A DNA stretch of 64,000 nt from Parvibaculum sedimenti (lineage in GTDB: Bacteria; Pseudomonadota; Alphaproteobacteria; Parvibaculales; Parvibaculaceae). The notes below the pieces were generated by a model. It did not search any database and had not been told where the DNA came from. It saw nothing but the letters and a program-made list of their open reading frames with translations. Below, one piece after another: positions 52,564 through 58,009 of this stretch. The DNA lies in NCBI RefSeq assembly GCF_009184905.1, contig NZ_WESC01000006.1, positions 62,001-126,000 of the forward strand, read 5' to 3'. Position 1 is the first letter of the stretch, and each line of letters begins with the position of its first letter. A program made the position numbers and the translations under genes.

Positions 52564-53571
52564 CTAGAGCGGTATCGCGACGCCTCCGGCTGAATGGCGG
52601 ATGAGATAGACGATCACGAGGAGCACCGCGAGGAGCGTCGTCCAGACGATCAGGCTGACAAGGGTGGATTGTTTCGCGCCCCGCCGTTCGTACCAGGTCC
52701 GGGGCCTTATGCCTCTGATGAGAAAAACGATCTGGGCGGTTAGATTGATGCAAACGATGTTGATGGCAAGCAGGGTTCCGGCGCTGAGCGCCATGTCGAC
52801 CCGCCAGGTGCCCAGCATGTAGCCAAGGGCGACGGCCGGGGGCATAAGCGCGACCGCGACCATGACGCCGACTACCGCGCTTGATACGCTGGTGGTCAGC
52901 GAGATCGCGCCGGCAGCTCCCGCTGCAAGTGCGAGGATGATGCTGTCATAACCGATCTGTGTACGGGCTATCAGTTCTGGGCCTGAAAATCTTTCGGGCA
53001 ACAAGTAGCCGGCAAAGGCTGCGGCGGCGATGGCAAGGCCGAGACCGAGAGCATTGGTCAGCGCGGCGCGGATGATGAGCTCACGGTCGCCGAGTGCGCT
53101 GCCGAAGGCGAGCGCCTCATTGGGGCCAAGCAGCGGTGCGATGACCATGGCCGCAATGACCACGGCGACATTGTTGTTGAAGAGGCCGATGGCGGCGACG
53201 ACCGTCGAGAGGAGCACCAGAAGGACGAAAGTCGCATCGGCCCGCGCCCCGCGCGAGACTTCCACATAAAGCTGTTCTCGCAGCGTGGCGGTGGCGGTTC
53301 TGCGGGCATCCTCCTGCGGTTCGGGGTCGGGGATGATGGCATCGACCGGCAGGATGATAAGGCGCCAGCCGGCTTCCGCACCCAGTGCGCCCTGCAACTG
53401 ATCCACGAGTTCCTGTTGCTTGTCGGAGTGCGCCAGAATGCGGACAGACTGGATACCCGTTTCGTCGGGCGTGGCGATTCGGCAATCCAGCGCGTTGAAC
53501 TGGCGCGCGATCGCCTCCAGCGTGTCGGCGTGTCCTGATTTGGCGACAACCTCAATCAGACGTATGGGCAC
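52564..53571 (-). CDS. DUF389 (TIGR00341-type) membrane protein
   Basis: A 335-residue protein: a soluble N-terminal part of about 110 residues (VVAKSGHADTLEAIARQFNAL, RILAHSDKQQELVDQLQ) and a DUF389 membrane domain of about six helices containing NNNVAVVIAAMVIAPLLGPNEALAFG and GYDSIILALAAGAAGAISLT. DUF389 proteins are widespread and of unknown transport or sensing role. I chose GTG 53571, preceded by AAGGGGAT; a longer in-frame reading runs antisense through rplI and is spurious. Confidence 0.87.
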   Translation of the reverse strand: MPIRLIEVVAKSGHADTLEAIARQFNALDCRIATPDETGIQSVRILAHSDKQQELVDQLQGALGAEAGWRLIILPVDAIIPDPEPQEDARRTATATLREQLYVEVSRGARADATFVLLVLLSTVVAAIGLFNNNVAVVIAAMVIAPLLGPNEALAFGSALGDRELIIRAALTNALGLGLAIAAAAFAGYLLPERFSGPELIARTQIGYDSIILALAAGAAGAISLTTSVSSAVVGVMVAVALMPPAVALGYMLGTWRVDMALSAGTLLAINIVCINLTAQIVFLIRGIRPRTWYERRGAKQSTLVSLIVWTTLLAVLLVIVYLIRHSAGGVAIPL

Positions 53572-53651
53572 GCAGATCCCCTTCCTGAAACCGTGGTGGC
53601 ATTGGATCCCGACACACAGGTTGCCAACGCAGAGGCCGCTCGGCCAACAAA

Positions 53652-53677
53652 AAACGCCGCCCCGAAGGGCGGCGTTT
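53652..53677 (-). terminator. intrinsic terminator of rpsF-rpsR-rplI
   Basis: AAACGCCGCCC (53652-53662) and GGGCGGCGTTT (53667-53677) form a perfect 11-bp stem around a four-base loop. Read on the minus strand, the stem runs into TTTTTTG, a standard Rho-independent terminator 31 bp after the rplI stop. Confidence 0.88.
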
Positions 53678-53707
53678 CGTGTCTCTTTCGGTCTGGACCG
53701 GAGAGGA

Positions 53708-54309: not shown

Positions 54310-54555
54310 TCAGCCGATGACGTAGGGCAGGAGGGCGAGGAAACGCGCGCGCTTGATGGCACGGGCGAGCTCACGCTGCTTCTTGGCGGAGACCGCCGTG
54401 ATGCGGCTCGGGACGATCTTGCCGCGCTCCGAAACGTAGCGCTGCAGGAGCTTCACGTCCTTGTGGTCGATCTTCGGAGCGTTGGCGCCGGAGAACGGGC
54501 AGGTCTTGCGGCGGCGGAAGAAGGGCCGGCGCGCGGGGGCTGCTGAGGTGCTCAT
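54310..54555 (-). CDS. rpsR: 30S ribosomal protein bS18
   Basis: An 81-residue bS18: the segment [20 protein letters not shown] is followed by the conserved [20 protein letters not shown] and [16 protein letters not shown]. The protein binds bS6 in the 30S platform. Its start codon overlaps the last base of the rpsF stop (TAATG), which keeps the two partners in balance. Confidence 0.96.
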
Positions 54556-55016
54556 TATTCTTCAATCCCTTCCGAAGCGGCTTCTTCACGATCGCGCGAG
54601 AAACGGGGACGGTCGCCACGGTCGCCGCCACGGGGACGGTCGCCACGGTCGAAGCGGTCGCCACGGCCACCGCCGCCGCGCTCGTCGCGGCTGCCACGGC
54701 TCTGGAGCATGGCCGACTGGCCGGTTTCATGCTCTTCGACGCGGGTGGTCATGAAGCGCAGAACGTCTTCGTTGATGCCCTGCTGGCGTTCCATTTCGGC
54801 GACGGCGGCAGCCGGCGCGTCGATGTTGAGGAGGGCGTAGTGGCCCTTGCGGTTCTTCTTCACCTTGTAGGCAAGGTTACGCAGACCCCAGTATTCGGTC
54901 TTCGCGACGGAACCGCCGTTTTCCTTGAGGATGTTCGAGAACTGCTCGACGAGCGCCTCGACCTGTTGCTGCGTCACGTCCTGACGCGCAATGAAAATAT
55001 GCTCGTAAAGAGCCAT
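54555..55016 (-). CDS. rpsF: 30S ribosomal protein bS6
   Basis: A 153-residue bS6 from [13 protein letters not shown], with the ferredoxin-like core ([38 protein letters not shown]) followed by a tail of about 50 residues rich in Arg, Gly and Asp (repeated RGD/GDR units), probably disordered. ATG 55016 has GGAAAAGG just upstream; an upstream in-frame extension is not bS6-like. The leader between 55017 and about 55200 contains several hairpins and may hold the S6:S18 autoregulatory element. Confidence 0.95.
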
Positions 55017-55240
55017 TGAGCCTTTTCCCATATGTATCCGGCCCCGGCGCAAAGCCCCCTTTGAGCCCCAAAAGGCTCGAAAGGACCACCAAAGAAGCGG
55101 AGACACCGGAGCCCGGGATTTCTCCCTGCCGCGCCCTTCAAGGGACACGGTGCGCCGTTCAGCCTCCAGCCGAGACCTTCAGAAGCGGCGCAATATAAGG
55201 AAAGCGGGGTTGAAAGCAAGCGGAGATGGGCTTGCGCGCC

Positions 55241-56844
55241 CTAGCTACGGCATTCAGGCGGCAGGTAAAGCGAAAGCGGCGCCTTGGGGTATTTGAAGGT
55301 GCCCGCGAGGATGAAGCCATGCGAGGCGGCATAGGCGACCATCCGGTGCTCGAATTCCCGATTACCATAATATCCGGTTAGAAGGCCGGTCGCCGGGCCG
55401 AGATAGCGAGTCACGTCGGAATATTTGCGGAATTCGGGCTTTTTTGCCTGAAGCACGCCGTCGATCCTGAACAGGAATTCGCCCGCCGCGCTTCCCGGCG
55501 AAAGGGGCACCCCGCTTCCGAGGGCCGGAACCGCGCTGGCACTCAGGATTTCGGTGACGCATCCGGGGTGCTTGCCAAGTGAATCGCCGAGGAGCCGCGA
55601 AATGCTCTCCTGGGCGCGCATGACGAGGACGGGAGGGTAGTTGTCCGCCCCCTGTCGGCCAAGGCCCCGAAGATCATGGGCGGAGGACAGGCCGATCAGA
55701 ATGAGCGAGCCCACCATCATTGTGGTTCTGAATGTGGACGAGCGATCCGCGATCATCGCGGCGGCGGGAACCGAAAGGACGATGAGCACGAGGGCGGGGG
55801 TGCTCCAGTATTGCAGGAAATAGATCATCGGCAGGACCGCCGCGATCACGGCAGCGACAAAGATGATGGCTACTTTCGCGATGTTGAGTTTTTCTCGCGC
55901 CGAAAGCGGGAACGCCGGCCAATCGAACTCCCGCCAGTCCCTCCGTGCAAGGATAAAGGCCGCAGCAACCAGCGCCAGAAGCGGAATGGCGAATATTGCA
56001 AAATCAAGGCAGCCATCCATTACCGATATCACCGAACCGAAGAAAGTGAGGCCACGGAACTGGTTGGTGAGGAGATGGAATTCGAAATTCAGAAACAGAA
56101 AATCCGACCTGTCGATCACGAGATAGTAGACGCATGGCAGAATCCCGACGGCGCAACCGGCCAAATAATGAACTGTCAGCGGGCGCCGTCGCCGATCGAT
56201 AAGGAACAGCAGAGCGACTGCGCCCGCGAGTACCAGGAAGCTTATCTTGCCAGAGGCGGCCAGCCCCATGAGCAGTCCGGTCAACGCTCCCCAGGTCGGC
56301 CTTTCCGGTTTGGCGATGTGCAGATAACAGGCAAGAGCGAAGAGGAAGAGAGGAAGAGAGGAAGCGCATAATTGGCCGCTTCGGACATGTTCGCGAAAAT
56401 GTGGGCATTCAGCAGAATCAGGGTGGCGGCGGTCCACGGCACATAGGGCCTTGGAAATAGTCGGTACGCTGTTTTTGCGCTGATCGCCGTCACCCCCAAC
56501 ACCAGCAAAACAGAAGCGAGTTTCGCGGCCAGGTAGAGGTAGGCCGGACCGACGAGCAACTTCAGAAGCGCGTAAATGAAAATGCTCAGAGGTGTCTGGA
56601 CAAAGGGAATTTCCCGATAGAGCGCCAGATGCGGGAAGAGCGAAGCCGCCGGGATATACATGTGATCGTCGTGGCTGTATGTCCCGAACGCCTTGATCGA
56701 GCGGATGATGGCATAGAGGCAGGCGGCGTAGGGAAGGACGAGCGCGGCGGCGTTTTCGACGGCATGAAGCGGCTGGGTCCGTGTATCGAGGCTTGCGCTA
56801 TGCGTTGCCGCGTTGGCCGGTATGACGGGATTGTGTCCGCTCAA
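55241..56844 (-). pseudogene. polytopic membrane protein gene (GT39/PMT-like), broken by an 8-bp repeat
   Basis: Two leftward frames together encode one polytopic protein. The 5' part (56844 to about 56360) reads through several membrane helices, with YSHDDHMYIPAASLFPHLAL and FVQTPLSIFIYALLKLL, and ends at a stop at 56281. The 3' part, in another frame, continues from about 56360 with FALACYLHIAKPERPTWGALTG to 55241. The switch lies in the tandem repeat AGGAAGAG (56343-56364). Removing one 8-bp unit joins the frames as ALPLFLFALA and gives 531 codons. The layout, an acidic pair in the first loop (HDD) and then many helices, resembles glycosyltransferase family 39/PMT-like proteins, but the family is uncertain. 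It could be a true pseudogene, a slippage switch or a sequencing error. Confidence 0.75.
56343..56364. repeat. 8-bp tandem repeat at the frameshift
   Basis: AGGAAGAG occurs at 56343-56350 and 56351-56358, followed by a partial AGGAAG (56359-56364). One unit is exactly the insertion that breaks the membrane-protein frame. Confidence 0.9.
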
Positions 56845-56982
56845 AACATCCCCTTCCGCCTCTTGCTCGCCTGGACTTCAGCACCGGCCGAATGAATCAG
56901 GCAAGCGCGCGGGAGACGAGAATGTTCCGGTCTGAGAAAGGCCTGCCTGCCTTCGCGTCGGGGTCGTCGGGGCCTCGTTGTC

Positions 56983-57010
56983 TTGACACCCCTCTTTGAG
57001 CCTGTATCTC
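56983..57010 (+). promoter_or_regulatory. possible fabD promoter
   Basis: TTGACA (56983-56988) lies 16 bp before TATCTC (57005-57010), about 60 bp before the fabD start. The -35 box is perfect and the -10 box weak, as is common in Alphaproteobacteria. Confidence 0.4.
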
Positions 57011-57067
57011 TGTGGACCAGCCGGGCCGCGAGCAGTCCGGGTTTTGCTGGATATGCAGGGAGCGTCG

Positions 57068-58009
57068 ATGAGCAGGGCTTTCACCTTTCCGGGGCAGGGA
57101 TCGCAGGCGGTCGGCATGGGCCGGGAGCTGGGAGAGGCTTTCGCCTCGGCCCGCGAGGTTTTCGAGGAGGTCGACGAGGCCCTCGGCCAAAAGCTTTCCA
57201 AGCTGATGTGGGAAGGCCCGCAGGAAGACCTGACGCTGACCGAAAACGCCCAGCCGGCGATTATGGCGGTGAGCCTCGCGGTCGTGCGTACCCTTGAAAA
57301 GGAAGGCAGCTTCAAGCTTGCCGACAAGGCCGCTTTCGTAGCGGGGCATTCGCTCGGCGAATATTCCGCGCTTGCCGCAGCCGGCAGCTTCACCATTGCC
57401 GATACGGCGCGCCTTCTGAAGCGCCGCGGCCAGGCCATGCAGCGTGCGGTGCCCGTCGGCGTCGGCGCGATGGCCGTTCTGCTCGGTCTTGATTTCGATG
57501 CGGCGTCGGATGTCGCCAAGGAAGCGGCGCAGGGGGAGGTCTGCGAAGCGGCGAACGACAATGGCGGTGGTCAGGTCGTGGTCTCGGGCCACAAGGCGGC
57601 GGTCGAGCGCGCCATCGAGATCGCCAAAACGAAGGGCGCGAAGCGCAGCATGGCGCTGCCGGTGAGTGCGCCGTTCCATTGCGCGCTGATGCAGCCCGCC
57701 GCGGCTGAAATGGCCGAGGCGCTGGCAGAAGTCGAGATCAAGACGCCCTCCGTTCCGCTCGTTGCCAATGTCACCGCCTCGCGCGTCGCGGACCCCGCGA
57801 CCATTCGCGACTTGCTGGTCAAGCAGGTGACCGGCATGGTTCGCTGGCGCGAAAGCGTTCTCTATATGGAATCGCAGGGCGTCTCGCGTTACGTCGAAGT
57901 CGGCGCCGGCAAGGCGCTTGCGGGCATGATCAAGCGCATCGCGCAGGAGCCCGAGACCGTTTCGGTCGGTACGCCCGCCGACGTCGAAGCCTTTCTGAAA
58001 ACAATCTGA
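57068..58009 (+). CDS. fabD: malonyl-CoA:ACP transacylase
   Basis: FabD loads malonyl groups onto acyl carrier protein. The 313-residue protein starts AFTFPGQGSQAVGMG, has the nucleophile Ser95 in GHSLGEYSA, the His204 in SAPFHCALM, and the usual GQVVVSG segment. I chose ATG 57068, preceded by AGGGAGC; an upstream start would add 24 residues before the conserved FPGQGSQ. It is the first gene of the fatty-acid cluster fabD, fabG, acpP, fabF. Confidence 0.96.
   Translation: MSRAFTFPGQGSQAVGMGRELGEAFASAREVFEEVDEALGQKLSKLMWEGPQEDLTLTENAQPAIMAVSLAVVRTLEKEGSFKLADKAAFVAGHSLGEYSALAAAGSFTIADTARLLKRRGQAMQRAVPVGVGAMAVLLGLDFDAASDVAKEAAQGEVCEAANDNGGGQVVVSGHKAAVERAIEIAKTKGAKRSMALPVSAPFHCALMQPAAAEMAEALAEVEIKTPSVPLVANVTASRVADPATIRDLLVKQVTGMVRWRESVLYMESQGVSRYVEVGAGKALAGMIKRIAQEPETVSVGTPADVEAFLKTI

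Follow-up and report, generated by a model that had tools for sequence, protein, structure and literature searches.

Phase variation is defined by switching that is reversible, proceeds without selection and has a detectable rate, about 1e-5, and near the lower rate limit loci that have evolved to switch are hard to separate from tracts that arose by chance, as a review of the subject states (PMC11868660). For Haemophilus influenzae Rd, Table 2 of PMC2651432 gives 45 octamers at a threshold of two units and zero at three. Our literature search on phase variation in Parvibaculum found no paper. Here we describe a gene of Parvibaculum sedimenti (assembly GCF_009184905.1) that is split into two reading frames at a short tandem array of an 8-bp unit. 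The gene lies in a stretch of 64,000 nucleotides (contig NZ_WESC01000006.1, positions 62,001 to 126,000 of the forward strand), which we call the window and whose numbering is used throughout. A sequence-only reading had taken the locus for a membrane-protein gene switched off by one extra repeat unit and had suggested an ON/OFF switch, with simple mutation or assembly error as the alternative. That alternative is the better reading, and the explanation we favour as likely is that an accessory envelope glycosyltransferase was lost recently to a frameshift when its gene gained one octamer unit.

The octamer array and the broken frame

The split gene and its parts are located as follows.

55241..56844, minus strand: split gene, most likely a GT87-like (GT-C type) integral-membrane glycosyltransferase, both pieces of which align with the orthologue L002
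56844-56281, minus strand: 5' frame, a truncated open reading frame of 187 amino acids with a TTG start, from the open reading frame listing and the orthologue comparison
56341..56364, no strand assigned: tandem array and site of the frame change, three AGAGGAAG units that read CTTCCTCT on the coding strand
55241..56350, minus strand: 3' part of the gene, carried by the second frame as 369 codons and a stop, without internal stop

The array is 24 bp long and its three copies match each other at 100%. The sequence-only reading had placed it correctly but had counted two full and one partial copies at 56343-56364, where there are three full units at 56341-56364; its AGGAAGAG unit, counted from 56343, is the AGAGGAAG array in another register. 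The unit lies within the open reading frame and is not a multiple of three, so that unit number decides the frame. In the 5' frame the first ~166 codons are native and are followed by ~21 out-of-frame residues and a stop. The second open reading frame as listed (56437-55241, minus strand, 398 amino acids) is in a different frame, and the two open frames overlap by 157 bp. Taking 8 bp from the 1604-bp span leaves 531 codons and a stop, so the claim that removal of one unit fuses the frames is arithmetically sound. The joined frame reads ALPLFLFALA across the array, and its counterpart in the intact orthologue is ALPLFLFSFA, which bears out the natural sequence claimed for the joint. The open reading frames and the comparison with L002 reveal no second disabling change besides the array frameshift. 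A promoter scan of the region gave no score above shuffled sequences, and a search of the source genome found no paralogue.

The sequence-only reading had proposed a comparison with relatives that carry the intact gene, and one was found. When the 3' half was searched against 61 related genomes there was a match, besides the source genome, in one (G020), at 62% identity and in a single open frame. The orthologue, in a sister species, is one open reading frame of 522 amino acids with a TTG start, and lies between fabD and rpsF like the window gene; the two window pieces are 62% and 54-55% identical to it. In the DNA alignment the junction region contains one difference in length, an 8-bp gap exactly at the array, which confirms that the frame is broken by one extra unit. 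The other large gap within the gene alignment has a length divisible by three (30 bp). At and next to the array site L002 reads NYALPLFLFSFACFL, while the two window frames read NYALPLFL and LPLFLFALACYL. The orthologous DNA is CTGCCGCTTTTTCTCTTTTCT, with no octamer repeat at this site, and L002 has no homology to the portion of the second frame that lies upstream of the array.

Both halves of the gene bear the mark of selection. Between window and relative the synonymous divergence (dS) is 1.22 in the 5' part and 0.88 in the 3' part, with omega values of 0.25 and 0.30 that are similar on either side of the break; for the flanking genes dS is 0.08-0.76 and omega at most 0.14. The low omega values indicate purifying selection on both halves for most of the divergence. 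Neither half shows a sign of long decay, and judged from the sequence the break is probably recent; the similar omega across it and the lack of a second disabling change fit a recent loss. The locus thus has what is expected of a recent pseudogene: a disabled frame, an intact orthologue and an otherwise intact coding sequence.

The glycosyltransferase gene is only 64-68% identical to its orthologue at the DNA level, compared with 82-99% for most of the surrounding aligned DNA, and its dS exceeds that of every flanking gene tested. The low identity and high dS suggest either fast evolution or replacement of the allele via recombination.

To place the array in its genomic setting we used stretches amounting to 794 kb, or 21% of the source genome, as a baseline. 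In this sample the array is the only three-unit octamer, and two-unit octamers number 16, where a first-order Markov model built on the same sequence predicts 16.6. Five runs of the model generated no three-unit octamer, so the third unit is not a matter of chance composition and is consistent with a chance two-unit array that was extended by duplication or slippage. A two-unit octamer in the pyrimidine-rich codons of a membrane helix requires no special explanation. The sample holds no tetra- or pentanucleotide tracts of at least 4 units, and this part of the genome is without a repertoire of contingency tracts.

Distribution and product of the gene

The gene is accessory. Of the 40 genomes of the order, 2 carry it; both are among the 27 genus genomes, and the 13 others lack it. 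When orthologues were sought more widely, across 385 genomes of the class, the matches were all weak and partial, with E values of 3e-6 or worse. Its neighbours are conserved.

54555..55016, minus strand: rpsF, a conserved flanking gene whose protein is 100% identical to that of the relative
57068..58009, plus strand: fabD, a conserved flanking gene in divergent orientation whose protein is 96% identical to that of the relative

In most other members of the genus the flanks of the fabD-rpsF site are the same, and a search of this site in the genus for gene remnants gave no significant match. The spacer (window 55017-57067), compared at loci that include L034, L037, L042, L052, L053 and L054, is ~340 bp in most species of the genus, 590-830 bp in several and, in the two that carry the glycosyltransferase gene there, 2 kb; it looks like an insertion site in the genus. 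At L037 (G006) it contains a frame of 137 amino acids, which by eye we take to resemble GFA-type enzymes. Elsewhere in the window, between cfa and rplI (52564-53700), lies a segment that codes for a membrane protein, in a frame that ends at 52564. L003 lacks this segment, and the two species differ here by an indel.

The assignment of the product is most likely that of a GT-C membrane glycosyltransferase, the best that the sequence allows and with modest support. The L002 protein resembles the family in that it matches Pfam GT87 (PF09594) above the curated cut-off, although marginally (26.5 bits against 25), and the window halves taken singly fall below it. The 3' half has a sub-cut-off match to the GT-C family PMT_2. 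An NCBIfam profile search gave no match above cut-off and a PDB sequence search none at all. The AlphaFold2 prediction made from the intact orthologue and the two window pieces had a mean pLDDT of 36.8, too low for the model to be of use. A mark of the GT-C fold is an acidic catalytic residue in the first periplasmic loop; in the proteins compared here a conserved H-[DN]-D-H motif is located after the first long predicted helix, a placement to be read with the poor quality of the fold model in mind. The enzyme would probably transfer sugar from a polyprenyl-phosphate donor to an acceptor in the cell envelope.

Origin of the break and alternative explanations

The loss that we favour would have run as follows. 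In two sister species an accessory GT87-like gene would have entered the space between fabD and rpsF, and a chance two-unit CTTCCTCT octamer may have arisen from the Leu-Pro-Leu-Phe-Leu-Phe codons of a membrane helix. Replication slippage would have added one unit in the sequenced strain. The resulting +8 shift is predicted to stop translation after 187 of ~531 residues, cutting the amino-terminal part off from most of the membrane domain, and on this prediction the truncated product is almost certainly inactive. On this evidence the locus is mutation-prone and, by analogy with the pneumococcal capsule genes, may revert at a low rate. Several points weigh against this explanation. There is a single orthologue, at a dS of ~1, and the direction of change rests on the continuity of the frame and not on several close relatives; the locus is known from the assembled sequence of one strain alone; and omega, measured across the full divergence, does not respond to a loss that is very recent or to switching that happens only now and then.

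It is also conceivable, though unlikely, that the organism has an intact gene and that the extra unit is an artefact of assembly. The source assembly is a draft in 41 contigs, a tandem repeat is a place where local misassembly could fall, and both halves of the gene bear signs of selection. The genome is, however, rated 100% complete with 0.4% contamination, the array, at 24 bp, falls short of the length of any ordinary read, and the gain of exactly one whole unit is atypical of base-calling error.

Translational phase variation, in which frequent reversible changes in unit number would turn the glycosyltransferase ON and OFF within the population, we regard as improbable. Short duplications in pneumococcal capsule genes are able to revert (Waite 2001, 2003, as cited in PMC4022640), and the array would just qualify for a permissive H. 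influenzae screen that took in octamers of at least three units (PMC2651432). A Campylobacter survey, however, required at least five units for longer repeats (PMC6321876), and PMC4022640 puts the reversion of insertions of up to 9 bp at ~1e-5 or below. The tract is not conserved in the L002 orthologue. Among the genomes compared, which include one strain of the species, no length variation of the tract was seen: the sole orthologue lacks the octamer repeat, and two or more units of the AGAGGAAG octamer occur nowhere in the 26 other genomes of the genus. The sampled genome likewise shows neither a contingency repertoire nor an enrichment of slippage tracts. With three units, a tract unconserved and unique in the genus and no such enrichment, the proposed ON/OFF switch is not supported. 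A variant in which this is a young contingency locus, an alphaproteobacterial envelope glycosyltransferase near the birth of its repeat that switches via octamer gain and loss with no other such loci in the sampled genome, is very improbable.

That both pieces are made and cooperate, or that a ribosomal frame change at the repeat leaves the gene functional in its present form, is scarcely credible: both frames are open and overlap, but the orthologue is a single chain and has no homology to what the second frame encodes ahead of the array. Programmed frameshifting was rejected since the junction of the two frames has no slippery homopolymer and the orthologue is single-chain.

Comparison with described repeat-disrupted genes

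The locus resembles the phase-variable simple sequence repeat genes of Haemophilus, Neisseria and Campylobacter (PMC2651432, PMC5084427, PMC6321876) in having a unit that is not a multiple of three inside the open reading frame of a probable envelope-modifying enzyme. The tracts in those genera are mostly longer, differ in length between strains and belong to a genome-wide repertoire, whereas the window tract has three units, is unconserved and has no repertoire around it in the sampled genome. Were the tract to switch, it would make an unusual example of phase variation beyond the usual host-adapted species. Its main value is one of calibration, as an envelope gene whose frame is broken by a short tandem repeat is readily mistaken for a phase-variable one; here the genome baseline and the orthologue show two-unit octamers at the rate of chance, one of which has gained a unit. 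While the pneumococcal capsule cases (Waite 2001, 2003, cited in PMC4022640) come from cultures or isolates whose phenotype was measured and the Parvibaculum locus is known from one sequence alone, the likeness between them is that a short tandem duplication within the gene would disable an envelope-polysaccharide function, with reversion at a low rate possible in principle.
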